A DNA stretch of 49,612 bases, taken from Candidatus Glomeribacter gigasporarum BEG34 (GTDB taxonomy: Bacteria; Pseudomonadota; Gammaproteobacteria; Burkholderiales; Burkholderiaceae). Every line of letters starts with the position of its first letter. Within the stretch, counting starts at the first letter, position 1. This document shows, in pieces, positions 12 to 48,389 of this stretch. A program made the translations under genes and the position numbers. The stretch is from contig NZ_CAFB01000047.1 in NCBI RefSeq assembly GCF_000227585.1, positions 1-49,612 of the forward strand, read 5' to 3'. The notes under the pieces are model-generated. The model saw nothing but the letters and a program-made list of their open reading frames with translations. It was not told the DNA's origin and searched no databases.

Positions 12-116
12 TAGAGCCTTTTTCAGTGAGATTGCACAAGGAGCGAGCGCGCAGACAGTATGAGCCAATACGGCGAGCGCGAAGCGACGCAGTGCAAGCC
101 GCTGAAAAAGGCTCTA
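12..116. repeat. Element A copy A1 (about 105 bp)
   Basis: A palindromic repeat whose left end TAGAGCCTTTTTCAG is mirrored by the right end CTGAAAAAGGCTCTA. It belongs to the mid-size class (about 104 bp) of the family seen throughout the window and has the shared core around GCGCGAAGCGACGCAGTGC. The right-hand CTA is the stop codon (TAG on the minus strand) of the PBP7-like gene. Positions 1-8 (AAACGCCT) match the end of palindromic family C, so another repeat may abut it. Confidence 0.85.
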
Positions 117-1280: not shown

Positions 1281-1428
1281 GGAACGGATGGGAGTCTTTT
1301 GGGCGCACACGATGGGAGCGGAAAATTGGATCAGAAAGCGGAAGCAGGGAAAATTTCTGAGAAGTGTAATGAAACAATTAAAAATTAGCAATATTAAGAA
1401 CTTAGGGCGCTTATCTAAGCTAACTTCT

Positions 1429-4553: not shown

Positions 4554-4657
4554 CTAGAGCATTTTTCAGTGAGATTGCACAAGGAGCAAGCGCGAAGACA
4601 GTATGAGCAATACGGCGAGCGCGAAGCGACGCCGTGCAAGCCACTGAAAAAGCTCTA
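4554..4657. repeat. Element A copy A2 (about 104 bp)
   Basis: Ends TAGAGCATTTTTCAG and CTGAAAAAGCTCTA; same size class as A1. It sits between the convergent beta-helix gene and gatA. Its right-hand CTA is the gatA stop codon read on the minus strand. Confidence 0.9.
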
Positions 4658-6163: not shown

Positions 6164-6256
6164 GGATAATGTAATCAAAATGTGCAAATAAGCATTGCTA
6201 TTGCAGAGAAATGTGACATGAAGTGGGGTACACTCAAATTTTTTTCAAAAGCCAGC

Positions 6257-8903: not shown

Positions 8904-9590
8904 ATGAGTAAGCAGCCGCGCCCTCTTTTCCAGGTTTTAGAGCATTTTTCACTGATTTTCCCTATGTCGCTTCTCTGCTCTGTGTATTCGGGATCGCTGC
9001 GGGGTCGCCTCCATCGCTTTGCGATGGAGACCTGCTCCGCCCGCATCGATCCCCATACTGTCTTCGCGCTCGCTCCTCGGGTAAATCGACTGAAACATGC
9101 TCTAACCGTCAAACGCCTGATTTTTGGCATTACGGCGTTAGCGCTGGGTGTGGCCGCCTGGTTCGCGTTCAATGCGAATCAGCGCGCGCCAAAAACAAGG
9201 TTCACGTTGCTCTCTGGCCAGAAAATCTCAACAGCGCAGCTGACTGGAAAAGTGTATCTTGTGAATTTCTGGGCGACGAGTTGCAGTGCTTGCAGACGAG
9301 AAATGCCTCAAATGATCGAAACTTACGAGACTTTCAAGAATCAGGGCGTGGAACTGATTGCGGTTGCAATGGCTTACGACCCGCCCGCGCATGTCAGACA
9401 CTATGCTCAGGAGATGCGCCTGCCTTTTAAGGTCGCCATTGACGATGGCAGCGCTGCGCGTCAATTCGGCGATGTTCAGTTAACGCCCACCACCTTTGTG
9501 GTCAGCAGGGATGGACGTATTCTGAAGCGTTATATTGGGATACCTGATTTCAGCGCATTGTACCAGATCATTCAATCCGCGCTAGGTTGA
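8904..9590 (+). CDS. TlpA-like membrane-anchored thioredoxin with element A in its N-terminus
   Basis: A thioredoxin-fold disulfide reductase, probably periplasmic. After a hydrophobic segment (LIFGITALALGVAAWFAF) comes the fold with active site CSAC inside NFWATSCSACRREMPQ, and later the cis-proline region LTPTTFVVSRDG. The frame opens at ATG 8904 (MSKQPRPLFQV), then reads in frame through repeat A3 for about 56 codons before reaching the membrane segment. No ATG or GTG lies between the repeat and the membrane segment, so translation must start in or before the repeat. The Shine-Dalgarno is weak. The original N-terminus may have been shorter. A membrane anchor preceded by a long basic, Cys-containing tail is unusual for the family. 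Its exact client is unknown. Confidence 0.85.
   Translation: MSKQPRPLFQVLEHFSLIFPMSLLCSVYSGSLRGRLHRFAMETCSARIDPHTVFALAPRVNRLKHALTVKRLIFGITALALGVAAWFAFNANQRAPKTRFTLLSGQKISTAQLTGKVYLVNFWATSCSACRREMPQMIETYETFKNQGVELIAVAMAYDPPAHVRHYAQEMRLPFKVAIDDGSAARQFGDVQLTPTTFVVSRDGRILKRYIGIPDFSALYQIIQSALG
8938..9104 (+). repeat. Element A copy A3 (167 bp), in frame in the thioredoxin gene
   Basis: Full-length copy from TAGAGCATTTTTCAC to the mirrored CTGAAACATGCTCTA. Read on the plus strand the phase is TTA-GAG-CAT, giving Leu-Glu-His-Phe-Ser at the start and Lys-His-Ala-Leu at the end, with no stop between. Confidence 0.92.
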
Positions 9591-9592
9591 AC

Positions 9593-9667
9593 TAGAGCAT
9601 TTTTCAGCGGCTTGCACTGCGTCACTTCGCGCTCGCGAAAGTAGCAATCTCGCTGAAAAATGCTCTA
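9593..9667. repeat. Element A copy A4 (75 bp)
   Basis: Short-class copy, ends TAGAGCATTTTTCAG and CTGAAAAATGCTCTA. It fills the gap between the convergent thioredoxin and adk genes, and its right CTA is the adk stop codon. Confidence 0.92.
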
Positions 9668-10327
9668 GGTTGATAATGCCCGCTCAATGCGCGCCCGCAC
9701 TTCCTCAACGCTGCCTTGTCCGCAAATACGCTGGTATTTGGGAGCGGTGAGCGCGCCTTCTTGTTGGTTTGACCATTTAGCAAAATAATCCATCAGCGGT
9801 TTTGTCTGCGCTTCATAAATGGCCAGACGTTTGCGGACCGTTTCTTCCCGGTCATCGTCGCGCTGCACAAGCGGCTCTCCAGTGAGATTGTCCCGTCCAT
9901 CGATCTGGGGCGGATTCAGAATGACGTGATAGCTGCGTCCGGACGCGGTATGCAGGCGGCGTCCGCCAATTCGCCGGATAATCTCATCGCCCGGCACATC
10001 GATTTCAAGTACATGATCAATCGCAATCCCGGCGCGCCGTATCGCTTCCGCTTGTGGAAGCGTGCGCGGAAAACCATCGAAAAGATAGCCATGAGCGCAA
10101 TCCGGCTTCTGAAGCCTTTCTTTCACCAGATCAATGATCAGCGGATCGGGAACCAGTTCTCCCGCGCCCATGTATTGACACGCCTTGATTCCAAGCGGCG
10201 TGCCTTCATGGACGGCTGCGCGCAACATATCACCGGTTGAAATCTGGGCGACTGAAAATTTTTTCCGGATGAAGTCTGCCTGTGTGCCCTTACCCGCGCC
10301 AGGAGGACCGAGCAGGATCAAGCGCAT
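9665..10327 (-). CDS. adk: Adenylate kinase
   Basis: Catalyses ATP + AMP to 2 ADP in the cytoplasm. The P-loop [10 protein letters not shown] is at residues 7-16 after the start MRLILL, the AMP-site motif DGFPRT is present, and a long-form LID follows ([14 protein letters not shown]). The 220 residues match the usual long bacterial form. The start at 10327 is fixed by the conserved N-terminus; the open frame extends much further upstream without similarity to the family. It is the last gene of the lpxK-Trm112-kdsB-adk group, with 89 bp after kdsB. The stop codon is the TAG at the edge of repeat A4. Confidence 0.97.
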
Positions 10328-10416
10328 TGTTGTATTTTCAGGCAATGTGTTTATTCTTGTATCCGTCATAAATAAAAAGCACGCTGAGTAAGAGCGCGCT
10401 GAAAATCGAATACCCA

Positions 10417-11208
10417 TTATGCCATGCCGTCGCGCTCGGCAAACAGAGCGCGGACGCGGGCAAGGTCGGCGCATGTATCGACGCCCGGCGCGGGCGCCTG
10501 ATGGGTGACGAGCACTGCAATGCGTTCTCCGTACCAGAGTGCGCGTAATTGTTCGAGCGCCTCAATGGTTTCTATTGGCGCGGGCGGTAATTGCACGAAG
10601 CGGCGCAGGAATGATGCGCGGCAAGCGTACAAGCCAATGTGGCGATACACTGTATGAGGCACAGGGAAAGACGCATATTGTCCGTTCCAGCATGCGGGCC
10701 ATGCCTGGAGATTCCAAGGGATTGGCGCGCGCGAAAAATACAGGGCATGACCGCGCGCGTCGAGCACCGCCTTGACAATATTCGGATTTAATATTTCGGC
10801 GGTTTCAGTCACCGGGTGAACAGCGGTGGCCATCGCGCTATCGCTGCGGCTGGCCAGATGCGCGGCAACCTCGCCTATCAGCGCGGGCTCAATCAGCGGT
10901 TCATCGCCCTGTACGTTGACAATGAGCGTGTCATCGCTCCAGCCGAAATAGCGCGCAGCTTCAGCAATCCGGTCTGTGCCCGACTGGTGATCGCTGCGCG
11001 TCAACAGGGCTTCATACCCATGCGCGTGCGCCGCATCGCAGATGCATTGCGCATCCGCCGCAATCAGGACGCGCGCCGCCCCCGATGCGCGCGCCTGCAT
11101 GGCGACGCGCACGACCATCGGGAGGCCGCCAATATCCGCCAGCGCTTTGTGAGGCAAACGGGATGCAGCCAGACGGGCCGGAATGACCACAATAAAAGGC
11201 GGCGCCAC
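10417..11208 (-). CDS. kdsB: 3-deoxy-manno-octulosonate cytidylyltransferase
   Basis: Activates Kdo with CTP to CMP-Kdo for lipopolysaccharide inner-core synthesis. The nucleotidyltransferase N-terminus [17 protein letters not shown] is at residues 7-23, followed by SGTDRIAEA and [11 protein letters not shown], all typical KdsB motifs. The start is GTG at 11208, two bases after the Trm112 stop, which implies translational coupling. It has 263 residues, the normal length. Confidence 0.96.
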
Positions 11209-17343: not shown

Positions 17344-18060
17344 ATGGACGCGCCTAAACCTCCAAAAATATTGATCGTGGATGATGATGCCCGGCTGCGT
17401 GATTTATTGGGTCGTTATCTGACGGAGCAGGGGTTCAATGTGCAGCTCGCCGAGCATGCGCTGGCGATGGACAGGATGCGCATGCGCGAGCGCTTTGATC
17501 TGCTGGTGCTGGATTTAATGTTGCCCGGCGAGGATGGACTGGCGATTTGCCGCCGGCTGCGCGCCGTCCCGGACCGCACGCCGATCATTATGTTGACCGC
17601 CAAAGGCGCGGATGTAGACCGGATTATTGGGCTTGAGATGGGCGCGGATGATTATTTGCCCAAGCCGTTCAATCCGCGCGAGCTGGTTGCGCGCATTCAT
17701 GCGGTGCTGCGCCGCCGCGCGCCGCCAGAGTTGCCGAGCGCGCCTTCTGAACAGACTGAAATCTTCAAGTTCGGCGATTTTACGCTCAACCTTGCAACGC
17801 GCGCCTTGACTAAAAACGGTCAGGAAGTGCCGTTGACAACCAGCGAATTTGCATTGCTTAAAGTCTTTGCGCGAGCGCCGCGTCAACCGTTGTCGCGCGA
17901 CAAATTGACGGAACTCGCGCGCGGACGCGAATATGAAGTGTTCGACCGCAGCCTGGATGTGCAAATCTCGCGGCTGCGCAAATTGATTGAACAGGATTCG
18001 GGCAATCCCCGCTTTATTCAGACGGTGTGGGGACTGGGATATGTATTTATCCCGAATTAA
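17344..18060 (+). CDS. ompR: OmpR-family response regulator
   Basis: DNA-binding response regulator of 238 residues. The receiver domain has the acidic pair in IVDDDARLRDLL, the phospho-acceptor aspartate in LLVLDLMLPGEDG, the conserved Thr in MLTAKG and Lys in LPKPF. The winged-helix output domain has FDRSLDVQISRLRKLIE and ends in the typical GLGYVFIP. It shares a 20-bp overlap with the downstream kinase. OmpR itself is the closest known relative by sequence pattern; targets in this organism are not visible. Confidence 0.93.
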   Translation: MDAPKPPKILIVDDDARLRDLLGRYLTEQGFNVQLAEHALAMDRMRMRERFDLLVLDLMLPGEDGLAICRRLRAVPDRTPIIMLTAKGADVDRIIGLEMGADDYLPKPFNPRELVARIHAVLRRRAPPELPSAPSEQTEIFKFGDFTLNLATRALTKNGQEVPLTTSEFALLKVFARAPRQPLSRDKLTELARGREYEVFDRSLDVQISRLRKLIEQDSGNPRFIQTVWGLGYVFIPN

Positions 18061-19387
18061 ATTCCTAGAGATCATCTGCGGCGGACTGTTCCGGCGCACC
18101 TTTTTGCTGATTGCGCTGTTGCTTTCGGCGAGTCTGGCGGCGTGGGTTGAAGGCGTGCGCATTCTTGAACGCGAACCGCATGCGCAGCGCGTCGCATTGC
18201 AATTGGCGTCCATCGTCAAACTGACCCGCGCGGCGGTGCAGTATGCGCATCCCGATTTGCGCGCGGCGCTGCTGCGGGATATTGAACGGAACGAAGGCGT
18301 CAGTCTCTATCCGCGCACGCCGGACGATGTGGCGCTTGGAACCGCGGCGCGGCGGCCATTAAGCCGGATGATCGAAGCCGATGTCCGCCAGTATTTGGGC
18401 GCGGATACGGTGATTGCGCGTTCAGTGAATGCGAAGCCCGGCATCTGGATCAGTTTCAGGATTGGAAATACTCACTACTGGGCCGCGCTTGACCGCGCGC
18501 ATCTCGATATTGTCACGGGCCTGCGCTGGCTCGATTGGGCGCTGATTGCATTGGGATTGTCGCTGCTGGGCGCGATGCTGATGACGTATTTTGTAAATCG
18601 CCCGTTTGCGCGACTGGCGCGCGCAGCGCGCCAGATCGGCGCGGGCCGGATGCCAGAGCAATTAGCTGAACAGGGCTCAGGCGTGATTGCCCAGACGAAT
18701 CGCAGTTTCAATCAAATGGCGCGCGATTTGCGGCAACTGGAGGAAGATCGCACCTTAATGCTGGCCGGGATTTCGCATGATCTGCGCACGCCGCTGACCC
18801 GTCTTCGGCTTGAAGTTGAAATGAATTCAACGGATGCGGCGGCGCAGAGCGCGATGATTGCCGATATCGAGCAGATAGATGCCATTCTTGCCTCTTTTCT
18901 GGAATACGCGCGCCCGCTGCCGCGCCCGCTCGCTAAAGTCGATCTGGCGCTGCTGGTGCGTCAGGCGGCTGCCCGCTTTGCGCGCAAAGATTCGATGGAG
19001 ATCGCGCTGCAACTGGCCGAACCCGCCATGATTCAGGCGGATGCTGCCGATCTGCGCCGAATTCTCGATAATGTGCTTGAGAATGCGCGCAAATACGGGC
19101 GCAGCGCGGAAGACGCGATTGTGCATGTACAGATCGCGCTGCGCAGACAGCAGAATCAGATGGAATTATTGATCCGGGACTGCGGGCCAGGCATTGCGCA
19201 GGATCAGCTTGAGCGCGTGACCAGACCCTTTTACCGCGGCGTTGCGGCGCGTAGTCAGAGCGATGGCGCGGGGCTTGGGATGGCGATGGTACAGCGTCTG
19301 GTTAGCCGCTGTCAGGGCGCGCTCCAACTGCGTAACTGCAGCCCGGAGCCAGGTCTGGAGGTGAAATTGACTTTTCCGCGCACTTAG
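18041..19387 (+). CDS. envZ: EnvZ-type sensor histidine kinase
   Basis: Membrane sensor kinase partner of the preceding regulator. The ATG at 18041 gives 448 residues and overlaps the regulator gene, indicating translational coupling. There is one membrane helix near residues 20-38, a periplasmic region of about 120 residues, and a second helix WALIALGLSLLGAMLMTYFV. A HAMP segment follows, then the phospho-accepting histidine in GISHDLRTPLTRLRLE, the N box NVLENARKYG, and G boxes DCGPGIA and GAGLGMAMV. All catalytic boxes are intact. The TAG stop codon coincides with the left end of repeat A6. Confidence 0.92.
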   Translation: MYLSRIKFLEIICGGLFRRTFLLIALLLSASLAAWVEGVRILEREPHAQRVALQLASIVKLTRAAVQYAHPDLRAALLRDIERNEGVSLYPRTPDDVALGTAARRPLSRMIEADVRQYLGADTVIARSVNAKPGIWISFRIGNTHYWAALDRAHLDIVTGLRWLDWALIALGLSLLGAMLMTYFVNRPFARLARAARQIGAGRMPEQLAEQGSGVIAQTNRSFNQMARDLRQLEEDRTLMLAGISHDLRTPLTRLRLEVEMNSTDAAAQSAMIADIEQIDAILASFLEYARPLPRPLAKVDLALLVRQAAARFARKDSMEIALQLAEPAMIQADAADLRRILDNVLENARKYGRSAEDAIVHVQIALRRQQNQMELLIRDCGPGIAQDQLERVTRPFYRGVAARSQSDGAGLGMAMVQRLVSRCQGALQLRNCSPEPGLEVKLTFPRT

Positions 19388-19550
19388 AGCATTTTTCAGA
19401 GGCTTGCACTGCGTCGCTTCTCCGCAGTCGGTATTCGAGATCGCTGCAGGGTCGCCTCCATCGCTGCGCGATGGAGACCTGCTCTGCCCGCATCGATCTC
19501 TATACTGTCTTCGCGCTCGCGCCAGTGCAATCTCACTGAAAAATACTCTA
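19385..19550. repeat. Element A copy A6 (166 bp)
   Basis: Full-size copy with ends TAGAGCATTTTTCAG and CTGAAAAATACTCTA, lying between the convergent kinase and lepB genes. Its TAG is the kinase stop codon. It carries the internal hairpin CTCCATCGCTGCGCGATGGAG that is typical of the 167-bp class. Confidence 0.92.
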
Positions 19551-25453: not shown

Positions 25454-28312
25454 TTACTTTGCGGGGCTATATCTCTCAGTGAGATTGAGCTGATTTTCCA
25501 CCCACGCTTTGACAGTGTGAAGCGCGCTGGACAATTGCGCGGGCTGCGTTCCGCCGGCCTGCGCCAGATCAGCGCGCCCGCCGCCTTTGCCGCCGATTCT
25601 TTGCGCGACGAAATTGACCAGTTCTCCGGCGTGTATGGTCTGATTGCAAGGCGAGGTCACGCCGCCAATCAGATTCACTTTCCCATCATGAACGCTGGCG
25701 AGCACGACAACTGCATGTTTGAGCTGGTCTTTCAGTGCGTCAACCGCGGCGCGCAGCGCGCGCGCGTCCGCATTGTCCACCTGCGCAGCGAGCACCTGGA
25801 CGCCGCCAATCTCAACCACCTGCGCGGCGAGCGCGTCGCGCTGGCGCGCCGCCTGCGCGGCCTGCCATTGAGTGCGCTCTTTTTCAAGAGTTTTCAGTTG
25901 CTGCTGCAATTGTTCAATCCGCGCGCAGAGCGCTTCAGGCATGGTTTTCAGCGCGCCGGCTGCGGCTAACAATTGTGTTTCAAGCATTTGTACATGGCGC
26001 AATGCGGCTTCTCCGGTGACCGCTTCAATGCGCCGGATGCCCGCCGCTACGCCGCTTTCAGACACAATCCTGAACAGACCAATATCGCCGGTGCGCGCCA
26101 CATGCGTGCCGCCGCACAATTCGCGCGAAAAACCGATGTCCAGCACGCGCACGGAGTCGCCATATTTCTCGCCGAACAACGCCACCGCACCGCTGCGAAT
26201 GGCTTCGTCATACGGCATCGTGCGCGCTTTTGTGGGCGCGTTGCGCAGAATTTCGGCGTTGACCAGCGCTTCAACGCGCTGGATTTGTGCGCGATTCAGC
26301 GGCGCGGAATGAGAAAAATCGAAGCGCGTTTTATCTGCATCGACGCGCGAGCCTTTTTGCTGCACATGCGCGCCCAGCACCTCGCGCAATGCGTGATGCA
26401 TTAAATGAGTGGCCGAATGATTGCGCATCGTGCGCGCGCGCCGCGCCTGCTCCACTTCGGCGCGCACCGCATCGCCGACGCTCAGTTCTCCATATTCGAG
26501 CGTGCCATGATGTCCCGCGGCGTTTGCCTGTATTTTAAATGTGCCGGTGACGGCAAAGCGCGCGTCACGCGCGCTGAGCATACCTTGATCTCCGACTTGC
26601 CCGCCCGACTCCGCATAGAACGGCGTGGTATCCAGAACCACAACGCCGCGCTGGCCAGCGTATAAGCGTTCAACTGCTTCGCCTTCCGCATAGAGTGCAA
26701 CGATTTTTGAGGCGTCGGCGCGCAAACTCTCGTATCCAGTAAAGGCGGTCTTACCGCCGCGATATTCGATTTTTCCCTGTTCCGGATTGAATTTTCCGGC
26801 CGAGCGCGCGCGCTCTTTTTGGCGCGCCATTGCGGCGTTAAATGCGGCTTCGTGGACGCCCACACCGCGCGCACGGCAAATATCCGCCGTCAGATCAAGC
26901 GGAAAGCCATAGGTATCGTGCAGTTTGAATGCGAGCTCGCCGGATAAAAGCGGAGAAACCATATCGCTACGCGCGTGAACGCGCGGCGCAATGCTGCTCA
27001 GCTCCGCTTCAAGCATTGCCATTCCGCTGGCAATCGTTTCGAAAAAGCGCGCTTCTTCCTGATGCAGGATATCCGTTGTCCGCCGCTGCGCTGCCGCGAG
27101 TTCCGGATAGGCGCTGCCCATCTCGCGCGCCAAATCCACAACGAGGGCGTGAAAGAACGGCGTTTTGCAGCCGAGCTGATAGCCATGCCGGATAGCGCGG
27201 CGGATAATCCGGCGCAGCACATAACCGCGGCCTTCGTTACTGGGTATTACACCGTCTGTAATCAAAAAAGCACAGGCGCGGATATGGTCGGCAATCACCT
27301 TTAGTGCCGTTTCTAGAGCATTTTTCATCGGCTTGCCCTGTGTCGCTTCGCCGTTCTGTGTATTCGGGATCGCTGCGGGGTCGCCTCCATCGCTGCGCGA
27401 TGGAGACCTGCTCCGCCCGCATCGATCCCCATACTGTCTTCGCGCTCGCGCCAGTGGCAATCTCACTGAAAAATGCTCTAGCGGCTTGCGCGGCGGCGCG
27501 GCGGTCATGCCGGTCGCGCGCGTGGCGGCGCGAATCAGCGCCTGAAACAGATCGATGTCGTAACTGCTCTGCACATGTTGCAGCACCGCGGCAATCCGTT
27601 CCAGCCCCATGCCCGTATCGACGCACGGCTTGGGGAGCGGCGTGAGCGCGCCGTCGGCGCTGCGGTTGTATTGCATAAAAACGAGATTCCATATCTCGAT
27701 ATAGCGGTCGCCATCGGCGTCTGGCGAACCGGGCGGCCCGCCCGGAACATGCGGGCCGTGATCGTAAAAAATTTCCGAGCACGGCCCGCAAGGCCCGGTT
27801 TCGGCCATTTGCCAGAAGTTGTCGGAACTGTAGCGCGCGCCTTTATGGTCGCCGATCCGCACAATGCGCGTGGCGGGCACGCCGATCTGTTGCTGCCAGA
27901 TGGCGTACGCCTCATCGTCTTCGTGATAGACCGTTACCCACAATTTTTCTGGCGGCAGCCGGTACACGTCCGTTAATAATTCCCAGGCGTAATGAATCGC
28001 TTCACGCTTGAAGTAATCGCCGAACGAAAAATTACCGAGCATCTCGAAAAAGGTATGATGCCGCGCGGTATAACCGACGTTTTCAAGATCGTTATGCTTG
28101 CCGCCTGCGCGCACACAACGCTGGACGCTCACCGCTCGCGTATACGGACGGGCATCGCGGCCGGTGAACACGTCTTTGAACTGCACCATGCCGGCATTCG
28201 TAAACAGCAGCGTTGGATCGTTGCCTGGGATTAAAGGCGAGGAACGCACCACCGTATGGCCCTTCGATGCGAAAAAGTCTAAAAACCGGGCGCGAATTTC
28301 GGCGGCGTGCAT
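25454..28312 (-). CDS. alaS: Alanyl-tRNA synthetase carrying an in-frame repeat insertion
   Basis: Charges tRNA-Ala and hydrolyses mischarged products. The start [19 protein letters not shown] matches the family; a TTG 15 codons upstream overlaps the end of fpr. The class II catalytic core ([19 protein letters not shown]), the editing domain ([16 protein letters not shown] and [13 protein letters not shown]) and the C-terminal domain are present. The protein is 952 residues, longer than the usual ~875. Much of the excess is a stretch of about 55 residues (near residues 278-333) encoded by repeat A8, inserted just before [14 protein letters not shown]. The insert starts LEHFSVRL and ends GKPMKNAL. 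No stop or frameshift is introduced, and the rest is conserved. As the only alaS seen, it is presumably functional. Confidence 0.95.
27314..27480 (-). repeat. Element A copy A8 (167 bp), in frame inside alaS
   Basis: Full-size copy, both arms intact (TAGAGCATTTTTCAT / CTGAAAAATGCTCTA), with CTAG formed at both edges. Read on the minus strand in the phase CTA-GAG-CAT-TTT-TCA it is open throughout and is translated as part of AlaS. Confidence 0.95.
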
Positions 28313-28353
28313 GAGCTCGCTGGAATATAAAAAATGATTAACGTCACTCCTGG

Positions 28354-29127
28354 TCAATCCACGAACGCTTTTTCAACCACATAATGCCCTGGCTGCGCGG
28401 CGCTGCTCTCCTGAAAGCCTCTCGCTTGAAGCAGCGCGCGCGTATCTTTGACCATTTGCGGGCTGCCGCAGAGCATGAGTCGGTCCTGCTCAGGCGTAAA
28501 GGGCGAGAGCCTTAAGTCTTTAAATAAGGTTCCACTTTCAATCAAATCGGTCATTCGCCCTTGATGGATAAAGGGCTCCCGCGTCACGCTCGGGTAGTAA
28601 ACCAGCTTTTCCCGCACCCATTGGCCGAGGCGTTCATGTTGCGGCAAGGTTTGCGTGATATATTCCCGATACGCCAGCTCGGCGGCGAGCCGGCACGTAT
28701 GCGTCAGTATGATGCGCTGGTAGCGCTGATAGATACGGGCATCCTTAATAATGCTGAGAAAGGGCGCAAGACCCGTGCCAGTTGCCAGCAGCCAGAGCGT
28801 TGCGCCGGGCAACAGATGGTCAATCACTAAAGTGCCGACCGGCTTCTTGCCCACATAGACTGAATCGCCTGCCTGGATATATTGTAAATGCGACGTTAAG
28901 CGCCCGCCCGGCACCTTGATTGACAAGAATTCTAAACTTTCCTCATCATTTGCGCTGACCATGCTGTAGGCGCGCATCAGCAGTTTGCCTTCGACTTCAA
29001 TCCCAACCAGCGTAAATTGTCCGTTTTCAAACTGGAAAGAAGGATCGCGGGTGCAGGTAAAACTGAAGAGTGTATCTGTCCAATGATGGACGCTTAATAC
29101 CGTCTGCGGGTGAATTCGATTCATCAT
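28354..29127 (-). CDS. fpr: Ferredoxin-NADP reductase
   Basis: FAD enzyme moving electrons between NADPH and ferredoxin or flavodoxin. The FAD-binding motif RAYSMVSA and the NADP motif [13 protein letters not shown] are intact, and the C-terminus ends [10 protein letters not shown] as in the bacterial subclass. It has 257 residues. Two Met codons start the frame. It lies upstream of alaS on the same strand and downstream of the CBS gene. Confidence 0.93.
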
Positions 29128-31378: not shown

Positions 31379-31882
31379 ATGAAAAATCCTTTAGCGCATT
31401 GGAAACGACCGTTGCCGGTTCCCGTTCAAGTTCGCCGGAACCTGTTTTCGCCATTTGATTCCATTTTTGAACGGATGATGGAAGACTTCTATCGTGATTT
31501 TGAACGCCCCTCCGCTTCTTTCGGAGACTGGGAAAATCTGATGCTTCATCCATGCGTGGATATCATCGATACTCAAAATGCGTTTAAAGTGGAAGCGGAA
31601 GTGCCAGGCATGGGCCCCGAAGACTTGAAAATTTCAATCAGCGACCATGTACTCACGATCAAAGGCGAAAAAACCGTCTCCCAGAAAGATAAGGGCCAGA
31701 ATTACGCGATGCGCGAGATCGCTTACGGTTCCTACCAGCGGAATATCCCCTTGCCGGAATCCGCGGATACTGAAAAAGTGAAAGCCACTTTTAAAAAGGG
31801 CATGCTCTGGATTGAAATTCCCAAAAAAGCAGGCAGTCCAGAGCGTTACCGGGAAATCACGGTAGAGTCCGCCGCGAGCTAG
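31379..31882 (+). CDS. Hsp20-family small heat shock protein
   Basis: ATP-independent holdase chaperone of 167 residues. The alpha-crystallin domain (about 55-150) has VKVEAEVPGM-like strands, the LKISISDHVLTIKGEK core and the closing KGMLWIEIPKKA. The ATG at 31379 has TTGGAGAT as Shine-Dalgarno; the frame continues upstream, but that region holds the FNR promoter. The TAG stop is the left end of repeat A9. Its class II FNR promoter suggests induction by low oxygen rather than by heat alone. Confidence 0.93.
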   Translation: MKNPLAHWKRPLPVPVQVRRNLFSPFDSIFERMMEDFYRDFERPSASFGDWENLMLHPCVDIIDTQNAFKVEAEVPGMGPEDLKISISDHVLTIKGEKTVSQKDKGQNYAMREIAYGSYQRNIPLPESADTEKVKATFKKGMLWIEIPKKAGSPERYREITVESAAS

Positions 31883-31953
31883 AGCATTTTTCAGTGAGAG
31901 TGCACTTTCGCGAGCGCGAAGCGGCGCAGTGCACGCCGCTGAAAAATGCTCTA
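31880..31953. repeat. Element A copy A9 (74 bp)
   Basis: Short-class copy between convergent hsp20 and bamC. The left TAG is the hsp20 stop codon and the right CTA is the bamC stop codon, so a single element terminates both reading frames. Confidence 0.95.
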
Positions 31954-33219
31954 ATGCAATTGCTGGCGCAGCAATTGCAGAATATGCCGCGCGGGCGCTG
32001 ATGTATCCGCGTCTGCCTGCGCATTCTCAATAAAAATCCGTGTTGTGCCGGCATCCAGCGACTGGACTTTTAGTAGGTACCGCTGCGCCTGTTTGTCTTC
32101 TTTTTTCGGGAAGATCCGGCGCCACACGCGGGTTCGCCTGGGCTGCGCTGGCTTGGAAGGCCCAGCGTCATAACGCAGGATGTAAATGCCTTGCAGACGG
32201 TTGCGCTCAGCGATGGTCAGGTTTGCGCGCTCCAGCGCCAGGCCTGTTTGCGGCCAGACCTGATCAAATGGCGCATTCAGATTGAGTTGCGCAGGCGCTA
32301 GAGCATTTTTCATCGGCTTGCCCTGTGTCGCTTCTGCGTTTTCGGTATCCGGGATCGCTACGGGGTCGCCTCCATCGCTGCGCGATGGAGACCTGCTCTG
32401 CCCGTATCGATCCCCATACTGTCTTCGCGCTCGCTCCTTGTGCAATCTCGCTGAAAAATGCTCTAGCGCTTGCATGGAAGGCGTCATTGCACGCTCCTCC
32501 TCCTCTTCCTTAAGCGGCCGCTGTTCTCCGTGCGCGCCTTCGCCCGTCAATGTCCGGGGCATGCCCTCGCCCGCCAGCGCATACATCAAACGCTGCAGAT
32601 ATTCCGCTTCCAGACCCGAATCATTCGGCGCGGCCTGCCATTGCGCCGTTTCCTTTGCGAGGCCCAGCGCCTCGCGCTGAGCCTGATGATGAATCGAAAT
32701 CCAGGTCTGGCCGTTCGCCTTGGCGAGAAGCCGAGTACGGAATTGATGCTTTTCAGAAGCCATATAAGCGCCGCCAAGCCGGTCTACTTTCGACAGGGTA
32801 TTACGGAGGATGCCCTGGTCAAGACGGGCGCGGGATATCTTCCAGTCTGTTTCAAGAACGCCGCGCGGGGCAGCATCCGCCAGCAGCCTAAAACCCTGCG
32901 CCTGCCAGAATGCACGCAGTTGAGGCCAAAGTTGCTCCGGCGTTTTATGTTCCACCACCAGCCAGCGCGCATGATCGGCGCGCTCAATATGCATGCCAGA
33001 CACAGGCGTAAGTACGCGGCTCGATACCTCAGCCGGATTTTCCGGCGCATTCACAATATCGGGCGGCATTTCCAGCGCGGATATCTTCGATTTTCCGGTA
33101 CTCTTGTAGTCAATCTGCGTTGTATTGGGCAGGCTGCACCCCGAAGCGGCAAGGCCTGCAATCGTTGAGAGCGCTATAACGCGGAATAAAGCGTGATGAA
33201 GGTGGGCTTTCACTTTCAT
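31951..33219 (-). CDS. bamC: Outer membrane assembly lipoprotein BamC with in-frame repeat insertion
   Basis: Lipoprotein of the BAM complex, which inserts beta-barrel proteins in the outer membrane. The lipobox LAASGC places the lipidated Cys at residue 28, followed by [17 protein letters not shown], the conserved unstructured segment that contacts BamD. Two helix-grip domains follow. Between them, at residues about 252-307, lies a stretch encoded by repeat A10 (LEHFSARL ... KPMKNAL). The total is 422 residues, longer than the family because of the insert. The stop codon comes from repeat A9. The gene is divergent from rpe. Confidence 0.92.
32299..32465 (-). repeat. Element A copy A10 (167 bp), in frame inside bamC
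   Basis: Full-size copy with CTAG at both edges, read in the same orientation and same phase as A8 in alaS. The encoded peptides of A8 and A10 align closely (shared [32 protein letters not shown]). Confidence 0.95.
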
Positions 33220-33956: not shown

Positions 33957-34828
33957 CTGAGATGACACCGCATCTATCCTGCCTGGCGCCGGCAAAATTG
34001 AACCTGTTTCTGCATATTACAGGCCGCCGGCCCGACGGTTATCACACCCTTCAGACGGTCTTCCAATTGCTGGATTATGGCGATACGCTGCATTTCCGGG
34101 TGCGTGACGATGCCGTCATCCGGCGCGCCACTGCTTCTCTGGAGGTGCCGGAGGAAAATGATCTGGCCATCCGGGCCGCGCGCCTGCTGCAAACACAGTC
34201 GCGCTGCCCTTTGGGCGTTGAGATCGGCATTGACAAGCGCGTGCCCATCGGCGCCGGACTGGGCGGCGGCAGTTCGGATGCGGCTTGCGTATTGCTTGCG
34301 CTCAACCGGCTTTGGAGACTGAATCTGCCGCGCGTGCAATTGCAGCGTCTCGCATTATCTCTGGGCGCGGACGTGCCTTTTTTTGTGTTTGGACGCAATG
34401 CATTTGCCGAAGGCATTGGCGAACGCCTGCACGCTATCGATCTGCCCAACCGTTATTTCTTGATCGTCACGCCGGATGTACAGGCGGCAAGCGCCGATAT
34501 TTTTGCAGCGCCAGAATTGACACGCAATACGAAAATCATCAAAATTGCAGATTTCCTTGAGCAGCGGCGCAATCCGCTTTGGCCAGATCATTTTGGACGC
34601 AACGATATGCAACCGCTTGTCGCCCAAAAATATGCGGAAGTTGCGCATCTCCTGGACCGGTTCGGACGCATCGCGCCAGCGCGGATGACGGGAACGGGGT
34701 CAAGCGTATTCGCCGCCTTTAAAGATAAAGAGCGCGCTGACTCCGTGCAGTCCAAACTACCGCAAGGCATGCACAGCATTGTGGCATCGGGCCTGGCTAT
34801 ACATCCTTTGTTTACTTTCTCATATTAG
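33953..34828 (+). CDS. ispE: 4-diphosphocytidyl-2-C-methyl-D-erythritol kinase
   Basis: GHMP kinase of the MEP isoprenoid pathway, phosphorylating CDP-ME. The substrate motif [20 protein letters not shown] is at the N-terminus, the ATP loop [17 protein letters not shown] follows, and the C-terminal [14 protein letters not shown] closes the active site. It has 291 residues. The ATG overlaps the rpe stop by 4 bases. The stop codon TAG is the left end of repeat A11. The gene is followed by tRNA-Gln and prs, the usual Burkholderia order. Confidence 0.95.
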
Positions 34829-34927
34829 ACATTTTTCAGTGATTTTCCCTGTGTCGCTTCGCGCGCGCCGTATTGCTATACTGTCTTCGCGCTTGCGCCA
34901 GTGGAAAATCGACTGAAAAATGCTCTA
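34826..34927. repeat. Element A copy A11 (102 bp)
   Basis: Starts TAGACATTTTTCAG and ends CTGAAAAATGCTCTA. Its left TAG is the ispE stop codon and its last A is nucleotide 1 of the tRNA-Gln gene, so it fills the whole space between the two genes. Confidence 0.92.
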
Positions 34928-35003
34928 GGGGAGTCGCCAAGTCGGTTAAGGCACCGGATTTTGATTCCGGCATTCGAGGGTTCGAATCCTTCCTCCCCTG
35001 CCA
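34927..35003 (+). tRNA. tRNA-Gln (TTG)
   Basis: Complete cloverleaf: acceptor AGGGGAG/CTCCCCT, discriminator G, encoded CCA, D-arm with TCGGTTAA, anticodon arm CCGGA-TTTTGAT-TCCGG (anticodon TTG), and T-arm with TTCGAAT. Nucleotide 1 is A, donated by the end of repeat A11, and pairs with T72. Most proteobacterial tRNA-Gln genes have U1-A72, so the terminal pair is reversed here. Confidence 0.93.
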
Positions 35004-37484: not shown

Positions 37485-37651
37485 TAGAGCATTTTTCAGT
37501 CGATTTGCCCGAGGAGCGAGCGCGAAGACAGTATGGGGATCGATGCGGGCGGAGCAGGTCTCCATCGCAAAGCGATGGAGGCGACCCCGCAGCGATCCCG
37601 AATACACGGAGCAAAGAAGCGACATAGGGAAAATCAGTGAAAAATGTTCTA
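37485..37651. repeat. Element A copy A13 (167 bp)
   Basis: Full-size copy with ends TAGAGCATTTTTCAG and GTGAAAAATGTTCTA, between convergent pth and sctT. Its right CTA is the sctT stop codon. Confidence 0.93.
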
Positions 37652-38431
37652 AGTGAATAACTGATGAATTAACATCCCAATAGCGCTAAACCACTCAAAA
37701 TAATCTTCCAGCGCCAGCCGCATACTCATGCTCAGCGCCAGACAGGCAAGCAACGACTTGACGGGCATTGCGATAAAAAACACGTCCAGACGCTCGGCAG
37801 TCTGATTGATCAAGCCGAGCGAGAAGTCCACCATCATCATCACTGCAACCGCAGGGAGCGCAAAACGAACGCCCAAATCCACCATCAACTGCCACTGCGC
37901 AATGATGAAAGCCGCGGTAGCGCGGCTGAGCGATAAAGGCGCGCCTATCGGCAATATCGTATATGAACGATAAATCGCCTCAAGCAACTGGTTAAAACCG
38001 CCGTCTACAAAAAAAAGCGCAGTGATCAACTGCGTTAACAACAGAGAAAATAAAGAGACTTGCCCGCCGGTCGTCGGATTGATAATTTCAGACAAACCAG
38101 AGCCGCGCACTGTGTCAATCAATTCGCCGGCCACATTCATCGCCCAGAATGGAACCGCCGCCATCAGTCCAATCGCCAGGCCCGCGGATAGCTCGCTGAT
38201 GCCCGTGATTAGAAACGCGGAAGCATTGTAAGCGCCCAAACCTTCCGGCGCGGCCACCCAGGCATGGGGCAATACCGGCGTTGCGATCAACAAAGCGAGC
38301 GCATTCCTGGCGAGCGCGCCGCCCAGGGAGCGAGCGCTCATCACCGGCAGCAAAACCATCACTCCAAAAGGACGCATCATGCACAAGGCCAGCGTCTGCA
38401 ACCACGGTAACCAGGCGGTGATCTGCATCAT
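37649..38431 (-). CDS. sctT: Type III secretion export apparatus protein SctT
   Basis: Multi-span inner-membrane protein of the type III secretion export gate (SctRST), family FliR/YscT/HrcT, 260 residues. Conserved stretches are GLSEIINPTTGGQVS and the C-terminal FSLGLINQTAERLDVFFIAMPVKS, which fit SctT better than flagellar FliR. Several hydrophobic helices cover the rest. Its ATG overlaps the tusA stop as ATGA. No other secretion gene lies in the window, so it is isolated here from its cluster. The TAG stop is the edge of repeat A13. Confidence 0.85.
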   Translation of the reverse strand: MMQITAWLPWLQTLALCMMRPFGVMVLLPVMSARSLGGALARNALALLIATPVLPHAWVAAPEGLGAYNASAFLITGISELSAGLAIGLMAAVPFWAMNVAGELIDTVRGSGLSEIINPTTGGQVSLFSLLLTQLITALFFVDGGFNQLLEAIYRSYTILPIGAPLSLSRATAAFIIAQWQLMVDLGVRFALPAVAVMMMVDFSLGLINQTAERLDVFFIAMPVKSLLACLALSMSMRLALEDYFEWFSAIGMLIHQLFT

Positions 38432-38673
38432 GATTTTTGAATCAACACACTCCACTCCCCATCCTGCGCGCGCACTTCGATCATCTGATGCCCCGCCTGT
38501 TTGGCAAAGGCCGCGAAATCGCGCACAGACTGCGGATCGGTCACGCGCACTTTTACAATCTGTCCGCTCTGCAAGCTTGAGAGCGCCTTTTTAAGGCGCA
38601 GGACTGGCAGCGGGCAGTGCAGTCCGCAGGCATTCACTTCTGCATCGATCTTTTGATTCTGATCTACCGTCAT
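38428..38673 (-). CDS. tusA: TusA/SirA-family sulfur carrier protein
   Basis: An 81-residue protein with the CPxP motif (GLHCPLPVLRLKKAL), where the cysteine carries persulfide sulfur for tRNA thiolation or molybdopterin synthesis. The rest matches the fold (SGQIVKVRVTDPQSVRDF). It is translationally coupled to sctT, which is an unexpected pairing. Its start codon is embedded in an element A scar. Confidence 0.9.
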   Translation of the reverse strand: MTVDQNQKIDAEVNACGLHCPLPVLRLKKALSSLQSGQIVKVRVTDPQSVRDFAAFAKQAGHQMIEVRAQDGEWSVLIQKS

Positions 38674-42002: not shown

Positions 42003-42470
42003 CGTATCATCGGCACAGTCCACAGTTCAAGTGACCCTGTGCACAGATATTCGGAACGGCAAGATTGGAGGGCGCGAAGCGCGAAGCACTTACCCAATTT
42101 CAGCCAATCTCATTCAGTTGTGGCTGAGCCAATATGATCGGGCGAACTGAATGCTGAAGAAGCGGCTGCCACAACGATCTCGGAATACGAAACCCAAATC
42201 GCAGCATTGGAGCGCAAAGCCGGGCAACTCACGATGGAGATCGACCTGCTCAAAAAGATGCCACGGTTGCGATCCGAAAGCAGCAGCGAGACCTCATCCA
42301 TCGTCAGCGGCCCGCTGCCTGTTCAGTCCAATGGGGGTGTCGGATGATTCAGCTCCCACGGAGCACTTTTTCATTGTACTCAGCCGCAAGCGCCTCGTTT
42401 GAGTGATGAACAGGTTGTAGAGCGGATAGATGCCATTCAGGACGAGCTGTCAGGCTACGGCTATCGCCGT
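42003..42470 (+). pseudogene. 5' fragment of an older IS3-family copy
   Basis: This stretch is a diverged copy of the first half of the adjacent IS3-family element: CTCATTCAGTTGTGGCTGAGCC and GACGAGCTGTCAGGCTACGG-type stretches recur in the intact copy. It contains the orfA equivalent with frameshifts and the start of orfB. It stops abruptly at the left end of the complete element. The rest of the older copy is not found on the other side. Confidence 0.8.
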
Positions 42471-43750
42471 GTGGAGTGAACCCCTGAGACTGGACAGCTT
42501 AGAGGAGAAAAATTGATACGCTTGCTGAGCCTATTATAAGGAACAGCATAATGTCATCGAGAAGCCTCTACCGTCGGCACAGTGCGCAGTTCAAGTTGCC
42601 ACTGTGCACAGATATTCGTAATGGCAAGATTGGGCGGCGCGAAGCGCGACGTACTGACCAGATTTCAGCCAATCTGATCCAGTTGTGGCTGAGCCAGTAT
42701 GATCGAGGTGAACTCAACGCTGAAGAAGCGACCGCCACCACGATTTCGGAATATGAAGCCCAAATTGCGGCGTTGGAGCGCAAAGTCGGTCCACTCACGA
42801 TGGAGATTGACTGGTTTAAAAAAACGCCACGGCGACCTCTCGATACCAACAGCGTCATCTCATCCATCGTCAGCGGCCCCTTGGCCTCTCCATCCAGCGG
42901 GGGTGTCGAATGATTCAACTTCCGCGCAGTACCTTTTATTATCGCGCCCAGACGCAAGCGCCCAACTTGAACGATGAACCGCTTGTAGAGCGGATAGAGG
43001 CTATTCAGGACGAGCTATCGGGCTACGGCTATCGACGCATCACCCGTGCTTTACAAGCGCAAGGCTATAGTGTCAACCACAAGCGGATAGCTCGAATCAT
43101 GAAGCAGTACGGTTTGGGAATTAAACCTAAACGCCGATTTGTTCGTACTACAGATAGCCAGCATGATTGGCCAATATTTCCTAATCTGTATTGCAATCAG
43201 GTTCCTGCTCGACCGGATCAGGTTTGGGTGGCTGATATTACGTTCACCGTATCGACACAGGATTTGTCTATTTGGCAGTGATTCTGGATGCCTGTAGTCG
43301 AAAAGTGGTTGGATATGCCATCGGACGGCAGATTGACACCCAGTTGACTCTAGCCGCTCTGAAAGCAGCTGTTGTCAACGCCAGCCGGTGCCAGGGACTT
43401 GTATCCACCATAGTGACCGTGGAAGTCAGTATGCCAGTGCAGAATATCGGCGCGCCCTGCATGAATATGGCTTGATGGGTTCGATGAGTTCAGTGGCTAA
43501 CCCTTACGACAATGCGCAAGCAGAAAGTTTTATGAAAACCCTTAAGGTGGAAGAAGTCTATTTATCTGGTTATGAGTCCTTTGTAGACGTAACCACGCGG
43601 CGGCCGATATTTATTGAGGAGGTCTACAATACCAAGCGCTTACATTCAGCTCTAGGCTATTTATCTCCCCATCCATTTGAAGTAAAACGCGCTCGGCAAG
43701 TGGGTCAATTTTTCTCCTCTAAGCTGTCCAGTCTCAGGGGGTCACTCCAC
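42471..43750 (+). mobile_element. IS3-family insertion sequence (1280 bp)
   Basis: Bounded by 46-bp terminal inverted repeats (42471-42516 and 43705-43750) beginning GTGGAGTGA and differing at about one position. It contains orfA and a decayed orfB. No target duplication is apparent (CGT on the left, TAG on the right), so the site was probably rearranged after insertion. Confidence 0.9.
42551..42913 (+). CDS. IS3-family transposase OrfA
   Basis: 120 residues. The segment ISANLIQLWLSQYDRGEL looks like the helix-turn-helix region, followed by a Leu/Ile-rich coiled coil (EYEAQIAALERKVGPL), typical of OrfA. The stop overlaps the orfB start as ATGA, an arrangement used for coupling in IS3 elements. 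Confidence 0.85.
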   Translation: MSSRSLYRRHSAQFKLPLCTDIRNGKIGRREARRTDQISANLIQLWLSQYDRGELNAEEATATTISEYEAQIAALERKVGPLTMEIDWFKKTPRRPLDTNSVISSIVSGPLASPSSGGVE

Positions 43751-46994: not shown

Positions 46995-48389
46995 TCATGG
47001 CGGAGCGGGTCCGAGCAGTTGCGCTTCAAACCAGCACTTCGCCGCCTGCCAGCCTGCTTCCGCTCCGGCACGTAGACGGCGCGCTTCTTCGCGGCGGCGG
47101 CGCGCTTCGGCGGCAATGGTTTCTTGTACGGCGGGGGTTGGGACTGGGAACACTAAATTCGTGACGTCCTCGTGGGTGAGACGCGGGTGGGTGTTTCCCG
47201 TCATCATATACTGGGTTTGTGCAAGCGTCAGGCTGCTGCGGAGGATGGCCGCAAGGTAATCAGGATGCAGGGCTTTACTGTCCTTGATGCGTAGAACGTA
47301 AAACTCCGGTGAACAACACCCACCGCTTTCCGCTGCATGCACCTTGTTCAGGTAGGCCCCCAACCGTGCGAACAGCACATCGCCACGCTGGAAAACGAAA
47401 CAGGTTCCCGTTACCTTCTTATTGGTTAGCACGAGTTCGCCCGTATGGCTTTGCACATGAGCGAGACTCAGGCAGCCGGGGCCAGGCGACTGGATCGGGT
47501 GGCGAATGAAATCGACGAGCTGCGCCAGCCGTGGACAATCCAGCGCCTGTGCTGAATGTTCAAGGGCGTGCAGCGCGAGGATGCGTTCTGGATGGAAATA
47601 GTCCGCATTGAGCCGCGCCTGGCTGCCGCAGTCCAACTTTCGCACCGCAAAAACCTTGCGTTCATCCTTAGGGGGTAGGGCAAGGCCGAGCGTCGCAAGA
47701 AGATAACTGTCGAAGTCAGCGAGCAGAGCGTTAGCTTCTGCGAGCTTGGCACGGCGTTCTGCGCGTGCGGCGTCCATTTCTGAAACGAGTCTTGCCTGTT
47801 TGCCGATATCGGGTAAGGGAATCACCAAATTCACCACGTCCTCGTAGGTGAGACGCGGGTGAGTGTTACCGGTCATCATGTGTCGGGTTTGTGCAAGCGT
47901 CAGGTTGCTGCGGAGGATAGCCGCGAGGTAATCAGGATGCAGCGCTTCGTGATTCTTGACACGCAGAACATGAAACTCCGGCGAACACCCCCCGTCGCTT
48001 TCCGCCGCGTGAACCTTATTCAAGTAGGCTCCCAACCGAGCAAACAGCACATCGCCGCGCTGGAAAACAAAACAGCTTCCCGTTACCTTCCTATTGGTCG
48101 GCACGAGTTCGCCCGTATGGCTTTGCACATGGGCAAGGCTCAGGCAGCCGGGGCCAGGCGACTGGATCGGGTGGCGAATGAAATCGACGAGCTGCGCCAG
48201 CCGTGGGCAATCCAGCGCCTGGGCTAGCTGTCGAAGGGCGCGCAGCGCGAGGAGGCGTTCCGGATGAAAATAGTCAGCATTTACTCTGCCTGAGATACTG
48301 CCCCGCTGCACAGCAAAACATTGTGCTTGGCCGTTTTCAGCAGGGCCTAGACGAAAAAAGGCGTGGGGTCCTTCTGAAATGCCCGCCAC
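46995..48389 (-). CDS. hsdS: Type I restriction-modification specificity subunit HsdS with duplicated target domains
   Basis: Determines the DNA sequence read by a type I system together with HsdM and HsdR. The 464 residues consist of two near-identical halves, each with NADYFHPER, a long conserved core (RLAQLVDFIRHPIQS, FVFQRGDVLFARLGAYLNKVHAAES) and NTHPRLT, followed by coiled-coil spacers (ERRAKLAEANALLADFDSYL and RRREEARRLRAGAEAGWQAA). Corresponding DNA positions are 672 bp apart. The GTG at 48389 overlaps hsdM by 43 bp; a later start is possible. Equal half-sites would give a palindromic target. No hsdR is seen in the window. Confidence 0.9.
   Translation of the reverse strand: MAGISEGPHAFFRLGPAENGQAQCFAVQRGSISGRVNADYFHPERLLALRALRQLAQALDCPRLAQLVDFIRHPIQSPGPGCLSLAHVQSHTGELVPTNRKVTGSCFVFQRGDVLFARLGAYLNKVHAAESDGGCSPEFHVLRVKNHEALHPDYLAAILRSNLTLAQTRHMMTGNTHPRLTYEDVVNLVIPLPDIGKQARLVSEMDAARAERRAKLAEANALLADFDSYLLATLGLALPPKDERKVFAVRKLDCGSQARLNADYFHPERILALHALEHSAQALDCPRLAQLVDFIRHPIQSPGPGCLSLAHVQSHTGELVLTNKKVTGTCFVFQRGDVLFARLGAYLNKVHAAESGGCCSPEFYVLRIKDSKALHPDYLAAILRSSLTLAQTQYMMTGNTHPRLTHEDVTNLVFPVPTPAVQETIAAEARRRREEARRLRAGAEAGWQAAKCWFEAQLLGPAPP
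47000..48300. repeat. 672-bp-spaced direct repeat inside hsdS
   Basis: The segment around 47463-47550 recurs around 48133-48222 with few differences. The same offset holds across the target-domain coding regions, marking an internal gene duplication of one target-recognition domain plus spacer. Confidence 0.85.

Follow-up and report, generated by a model that had tools for sequence, protein, structure and literature searches.

The gene for alanyl-tRNA synthetase (alaS) of Candidatus Glomeribacter gigasporarum BEG34 contains a palindromic repeat, and the question raised by this locus is how such an element can lie within an essential enzyme without breaking it. The window, by which is meant the whole stretch of DNA that was analyzed, comprises 49,612 nucleotides of contig NZ_CAFB01000047.1 and belongs to a draft host genome (G000) of 1,726,950 bases in 124 contigs that is 95.3% complete, with a sample G+C content of 56.1%. 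The organism is described in the available part of PMC4285135 as a Burkholderiaceae endosymbiont of a Gigaspora fungus with a genome of 1.72 Mb and 54.82% G+C. A sequence-only reading of the window had claimed that a 167-bp palindrome adds about 55 residues to AlaS without a stop or a frameshift, that it is inserted in the manner of the Rickettsia palindromic elements (RPEs), that it is peculiar to this lineage and that it is tolerated at a loop.

The insert in alaS

The alaS ORF occupies positions 25454-28357 of the minus strand and opens at a TTG at 28357; the likely ATG lies at 28312, giving a gene (25454..28312, minus strand) for an alanine--tRNA ligase of 952 amino acids. Within it, on the same strand, lies an imperfect, MITE-like palindrome of 167 bp with TA at both ends. 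The sequence-only reading was right as to the element itself, but its span of 27313-27481 includes one base too many on each side, the exact position being 27314-27480. Frame reading bears out the remainder of that description, since the net gain is 165 bp, or 55 codons, which are free of stops and keep the frame, giving a predicted reading of 55 residues. Despite the insert, the TIGR00344 alaS profile is still covered in full (1-847 of 847). Folded as RNA, the element reaches -86.1 kcal/mol, whereas 200 shuffles average -51.8 (sd 4; z = -8.57) and none of them is as good.

The earlier interpretation presupposed that this is the sole intact alaS, and a second one was not found in the host genome (1.73-Mb draft, 95.3% complete). 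An AlaS query gives 59 matches there: alaS itself, one match of 25% identity to AlaS residues 635-770, which is probably the editing domain of another synthetase, and the remainder on the element part of the query. Between the host and its sister species (G008) the dN/dS of alaS is 0.148 overall and 0.073 in the catalytic part.

Absence of the insert from orthologs and from the sister species

Alignment of AlaS with its orthologs, the check proposed in the sequence-only reading, reveals the insert (residues 293-344) in 0 of 80, and thus no relative in this set carries the peptide. The sister species, the sole other genome of the genus encountered in the sample, has an alaS that matches residues 16-289 and 348-961, the two matches lying 15 bp apart in one frame of 909 amino acids with no insert. 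At the insertion point the DNA reads TTA GAA in the sister species and CTA (element) ... CTA GAA in the host. The loop directly before this point is longer in both members of the genus than in the orthologs displayed.

A DNA search of 299 family genomes, the host's own included, finds matches in five, and full-length copies are confined to the host and its sister species; the three other genomes hold pieces of the element of 29-48 bases (E 6e-4 to 9e-4). The pattern of the element end likewise has 38 matches in the sister species and none in eight other family genomes, in one of which the reversed control has a single match. No record resembling the element was found in plasmid and phage collections, and Rfam at gathering thresholds reports two tRNAs in the window and nothing else. 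The claim that the repeat is peculiar to this lineage is thus supported by the 80 orthologs that are free of the insert, by the insert-free alaS of the sister species and by the restriction of full-length copies to 2 of the 299 genomes.

Ten host elements have both flanks on one sampled stretch of the sister genome, and eight of these sites, alaS included, are free of the element there, with the flanks 8-55 bp apart. The other two carry element sequence, namely a remnant in a Fer4_5 (ccoG-like) gene and a 164-bp copy on the stop codon of rpoB. This position is filled in both members of the genus, by 103 bp in the host (L109, 9018-9120) and by 164 bp in the sister species (L176, 6887-7050), and represents either an old common insertion with internal change or a site that was struck twice. 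The Fer4_5 gene holds a two-element composite in the host (L126, 1374-1645) and the remnant in the sister species (L192, about 2124-2180), and element-derived coding sequence may therefore date from the common ancestor. A further 164-bp copy of the sister species (L178, 2247-2410) lies in phase within an ORF and contains two stops, suggesting that copies in genes may later decay or truncate those genes.

Position of the inserts in protein structures

In a PDB alignment the AlaS insert falls in a gap between residues 274 and 278 of E. coli AlaRS. In an AlphaFold2 model of AlaS, built on a 61-sequence alignment, residues 288-344 stay under a pLDDT of 50 and lie between the helices 269-282 and 343-367; confidence is also low for two segments of the catalytic domain (40-59 and 81-104). 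Compared with 3HXU, the catalytic fragment from E. coli, the model has a TM score of 0.85, normalized by target. The predicted disorder between two helices, together with the alignment gap, supports the earlier placement of the insert at a loop. The peptide itself is hydrophilic and appears basic and Arg-rich.

Similar positions are found for other inserts of the family. By PDB alignment the CarA insert is a gap between E. coli residues 181 and 187 and the GlmS insert a gap between residues 134 and 141, and the SucB insert lies between the E3-binding and catalytic domains. For RsmB, the alignment with the E. coli relative is significant only downstream of the insert.

A family of palindromic elements

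The end of the element, TAGAGCATTTTTCAG, occurs 279 times at no more than one mismatch in 1.73 Mb (139 forward, 140 reverse), and the reversed control pattern does not occur. Within 441,255 bases, made up of the window and the stretches around listed copies, there are 95 paired elements, of which 93 are without nested partners; the nested partners L101 11602 and L126 1542 were removed before counting, and the final automatic count keeps the shorter of nested pairs. A hold-out set comprises 22 further elements at exact-end matches outside these discovery stretches; one of the hold-out stretches shares 0.9 kb with a discovery stretch, the element itself lying outside the shared part.

The paired elements measure 54-272 bp, have 15-bp inverted ends and cluster at sizes of 71, 75, 104 and 164/167/170 bp. 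A pyrimidine (C/T) precedes the left TA in 92 of 94 elements and a purine (A/G) follows the right TA in 92 of 94, the flanks being otherwise featureless. This composition, with TA at both ends, indicates that the target is Y-TA-R and that the TA is duplicated. The elements are thus short, without a transposase, and provided with terminal inverted repeats and a target-site duplication, the features by which MITEs are recognized. The abundant 75-bp class shifts the frame. Among long copies, which were chosen for their similarity to the alaS copy in DNA (best 40 of 215 candidates) and in peptide and are therefore not a random sample, 40 of 45 add a multiple of three bases (3n). Because 26 of the 31 long copies outside genes do so as well, the length classes alone are no proof of translation.

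IS630 uses TA as its target, and the TA duplication would fit an IS630 or Tc1-mariner assignment; however, DDE_3 (PF13358), the IS630-type transposase, has no match in the host genome at E<=0.001, and the family is not filed under IS630. A parent transposon with the element ends was not found among the solo ends and 13 adjoining stretches examined, and the six DDE_Tnp_1 matches lack these ends. One candidate parent (L114, 2038-2573) was rejected, being by eye an IS remnant, presumably ISL3-like, that interrupts the end of an element and has an 8-bp repeat at its flanks.

The window itself holds a number of copies besides that in alaS. A 167-bp copy (32299..32465, minus strand) lies in frame in a BamC/NlpB-like lipoprotein gene (ORF 31951-33219, minus), and a 74-bp copy (31880..31953) lies at the stop codon of the same ORF, the stop at 31951-31953 being element sequence. 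Stop codons are likewise supplied by a 105-bp copy at 12..116 for ORF 114-1391 (minus), by a 75-bp copy at 9593..9667 for ORF 9665-10474 (minus), by a 166-bp copy at 19385..19550 for the EnvZ-like ORF 17987-19387 and by a 167-bp copy at 37485..37651 for ORF 37649-38455 (minus). A damaged copy of about 103 bp, read by eye at 4555..4657, provides with its right end the stop codon of ORF 4655-6187 (minus) and stands outside the automatic counts, its right end being too diverged. A 167-bp copy at 8938..9104 lies close to the beginning of a redoxin-like ORF (8904-9590, plus), either in its N-terminal part or upstream of the true start, and a diverged copy of about 102 bp (34826..34927) ends at the first base, the 5' end, of a predicted tRNA-Gln (34927-35003).

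Repeats of other kinds are also present in the window. About 440 bp are duplicated within 42032-43037 at a spacing of 565-568 bp and 77-87% identity, a 60-nt inverted repeat pair lies at 42471-42530 and 43691-43750, and a 300-nt direct repeat, 84% identical with its copies 672 bp apart (47146-47445 and 47818-48117), lies within ORF 46995-48389.

Copies within genes

The sequence-only reading proposed a search for further in-frame copies, and these were found in unrelated housekeeping genes (CarA, GlmS, SucB, CobN, YhdP, RsmB, BamC, MutS, NadC). In-frame palindromic insertion into protein genes in the style of the RPEs, as that reading supposed, thus extends here to genes of unrelated function. 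More specifically, 13 elements are flanked on each side by 100 or more open codons, and all 13 ORFs have a Pfam match: YhdP, CobN, AlaS, a PMT-type glycosyltransferase, MutS (104 bp), CarA (170 bp), GlmS, SucB, a HemX-like protein, a hybrid histidine kinase (71 bp), RsmB, BamC and a Fer4_5 membrane protein (composite, 272 bp). Additional in-frame recipients are NadC, with 97 codons on one side, and MacB, from the hold-out set. Sixteen other ORFs with shorter open stretches were scanned, and a Pfam match was obtained for seven of these and for none of the remaining nine.

If the inserts are translated, only 3n sizes are expected to survive inside genes. An automatic rule counts a copy as interior if the frame without the insert stays open for 50 codons or more on each side and the copy does not sit on a stop codon; by this rule 19 of 63 frame-keeping elements are interior versus 1 of 30 frame-shifting ones (93 discovery elements; Fisher p = 0.0026). 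The hold-out set gives 2 of 11 frame-keeping and 1 of 11 frame-shifting, which is no separation and is not significant alone; the frame-shifting case (L200 1222) lies on inspection between two separate ORFs. Discovery and hold-out sets pooled give p = 0.0028 as classified and 0.0004 with this case corrected, and L100 6675 (frame-shifting, 55 and 85 codons) was kept as classified. The contrast depends on the cut, as is apparent from an earlier series of frame-keeping copies (of 63) versus frame-shifting copies (of 30): 24 vs 3 at 50 codons (p = 0.007), 16 vs 1 at 75 (p = 0.01), 13 vs 1 at 100 (p = 0.03) and 8 vs 1 at 150 (p = 0.26). The lone shifting copy at 75 codons or more in that series (L130 16890) is a stop-codon copy that was earlier counted inside a gene.

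Interior positions are used by 20 of 93 copies, as compared with 52% of empty YTAR sites, an under-use that is expected if most interior insertions are harmful. The presence of frame-keeping and frame-shifting size classes together in one genome amounts to a natural experiment on the selection that acts on DNA landing in essential enzymes.

Copies at stop codons

Stop codons are a commoner niche of the element than gene interiors, and one that is absent from the sequence-only reading. Exactly on a stop codon, supplying its TAG, lie 37 of 93 copies as compared with 13% of the empty YTAR sites of the same DNA (p = 5e-11); in the hold-out set the figures are 8 of 22 and 10% (p = 0.001). This exact class requires TAA or TAG after the right TA. 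In 40 of 93 elements an open frame of 100 codons or more runs into the leading stop of the element, and 37 of these 40 retain the former stop, TAA or TAG, directly behind the right TA.

The geometry of the target fits this arrangement. Within an ORF a YTAR site can occupy two codon phases only, because in the third phase TAR is a stop codon; in agreement with this expectation, the 793 YTAR sites in 147 long ORFs fall into two phases (450 and 343). Since the element opens with TAG, the stop is restored in the third phase. An NCBIfam scan (E<=1e-60) of ten ORFs with stop-codon copies matched nine, and for RpoB, UvrD, PriA, Dxs, HslU and LysC the last residue falls no more than two positions from the end of one or more of the matched profiles; the C-termini of these six proteins are thus natural. 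The enrichment of stop codons also holds in comparison with the remaining sites outside gene interiors (odds ratio 2.9, p = 3e-5; hold-out 3.7, p = 0.025), and could reflect either selection or insertion preference.

Orientation and open frames

Four of the six frames of the element consensus are free of stops, which is not exceptional, as four open frames arise in 2 to 6% of shuffles. Depending on which of these frames is read, between 14 and 17 of the 17 genic long copies and between 14 and 23 of the 23 other long copies are open, and an element is thus usually open in the two phases available within an ORF. The long copies inside genes are oriented, with 12 of 14 in the sense direction and 10 of 14 in one single frame, versus 6 sense and 9 antisense among long stop-codon copies (interior vs stop p = 0.02). 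The claim of orientation rests on the automatic count of 12 of 14. A hand-picked list of 15 interior copies gives 13 for orientation and 11 for the single frame, at least one of its entries being doubtful: L114 8792 is also classed as a stop-codon copy, and for L102, L103 and L111 the proof of interior position is weaker. The codon phase of interior copies is unbiased (11 of 15 vs 57% expected, p = 0.30). The orientation bias is consistent with selection on the peptide, more so than with a preference during insertion. No claim is made that the element itself is under coding selection, pN/pS being 0.68 in genic copies and 0.64 in others, with no clear difference between the two either in pN/pS by frame or in variability by codon position.

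Origin of the insert and alternative explanations

The alaS insert is very probably a non-autonomous, MITE-like palindrome that was mobilized in trans to Y^TA^R and is read as a tolerated, disordered loop. The observed target points to insertion at Y^TA^R with duplication of the TA, and a transposase, presumably of the DDE type, would act in trans. Survival in genes would follow from size classes that are mostly 3n and from a consensus that is stop-free in both phases open to YTAR within an ORF; in the third phase, where YTAR is itself a stop, the leading TAG of the element would take its place. In AlaS the intact frame suggests that the 55-residue peptide is translated as a disordered loop. 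It would follow the catalytic core and precede the next helical domain, at a place where the genus has an enlarged loop to begin with. The alaS copy would be tolerated rather than useful, a neutral or mildly harmful parasite that is filtered by selection on the host protein.

An alternative explanation, and a quite unlikely one, is that the hairpin is spliced, excised by RNase III or bypassed by the ribosome and never appears in the protein. Ribosome-skipped elements occur in yeast mitochondria, and the hairpin, at -86 kcal/mol, is very stable. RNase III processing has been proposed for QMITE2 of Coxiella burnetii in the available text of PMC5896051. Such removal or skipping would, however, allow frame-shifting sizes and stops, yet 19 of the 20 discovery interior copies keep the frame and the strongest of them are open; it also predicts no orientation bias, and a bias is seen inside genes but not at stop codons. 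Co-option of the insert, which might for instance serve AlaS as an additional basic tail for binding RNA, is very unlikely. The basic, Arg-rich appearance of the peptide and the element-derived Fer4_5 sequence common to both species speak for such a use, but the alaS insert is species-specific, a closely similar peptide is found in unrelated enzymes and the pN/pS of genic copies is no lower.

Membership in a true RPE family, acquired horizontally, would explain the similar size, palindromic shape and in-frame insertion (as described in the available part of PMC10969869), but is highly improbable given that nothing similar exists in the plasmid or phage collections and that, among the 299 family genomes, full-length copies occur in two of a single genus. 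In one profile search, moreover, the four frame peptides gave no match at E<=10 to NCBIfam, a library presumed to include RPE models, and thus no RPE relationship at the level of peptide profiles. A 124-contig draft with a high-copy repeat might be suspected of an assembly error, or alaS of being a decaying pseudogene, but both flanks of the insert are alaS, in frame, and match the element-free site of the sister species, and the ORF is intact, under the dN/dS given above and the sole alaS found, all of which renders this possibility extremely improbable.

Thus, a mobile palindrome tolerated within the protein is the preferred explanation, and the placement of these hairpins suggests how a genome parasite may live among genes without breaking them. 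More tentatively, and with the balance somewhat against it, the family may be fitted to the genetic code, such that the YTAR target, the TAG end, two stop-free phases per strand and 3n lengths yield a full-length protein wherever a 3n copy lands in a gene or at its end. If so, the whole coding sequence would be habitable, which may explain the persistence of more than 100 copies in a reduced genome. The appeal of the arrangement lies in a simple rule that ties together the target site of a transposon, the end of the element and the stop codon. AlaS, GlmS, CarA and SucB with and without the loop of about 55 residues, together with the list of recipient genes, offer proteins for further tests.

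Comparison with known systems

The combination of target site, element end and frame was not found in the available text of the open-licence literature on RPEs, MITEs and stop codons, and no repeat study of Candidatus Glomeribacter gigasporarum was found in open-licence literature. Several bacterial repeats are nevertheless similar in part. MITEAba12 of Acinetobacter is a bacterial MITE of comparable size (113 bp). QMITE1 and QMITE2 of Coxiella burnetii are MITEs that overlap ORFs, at times in frame in the middle of an ORF; as described in the available part of PMC5896051, they differ in having direct repeats of variable sequence, and the mid-ORF in-frame copies named there are in hypothetical genes. 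ERIC and RU-1, RU-2 and RU-3 of enterobacteria are small mobile hairpins whose open frames are fused in frame to ORFs at 24 loci (PMC2759123, available part); compared by description, they differ in being mainly intergenic, with fusions mostly outside genes of large superfamilies.

The pneumococcal BOX repeat resembles the present family in supplying stop codons to its host: the very 3' end of the gene, stop codon included, lies within a BOX repeat in 36 cases (PMC3049150, available part). The host is different, however, and, on a comparison by description, the set of in-frame interior copies distinguishes the present family, no comparable set being described for BOX in the text available. The RPEs resemble it in the other respect, as short palindromes that are inserted in frame in protein genes. 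They are palindromes of about 150 bp in several families, with 44 copies in R. conorii, nearly half of them within ORFs, and a conserved peptide for each family (PMC10969869, available part). The present family differs in its host group; it is characterized by its Y-TA-R target, its combination of 3n and non-3n classes and the many host stop codons that it supplies. Protein-invading palindromes are best known from Rickettsia, and the present case places them in a betaproteobacterial lineage.
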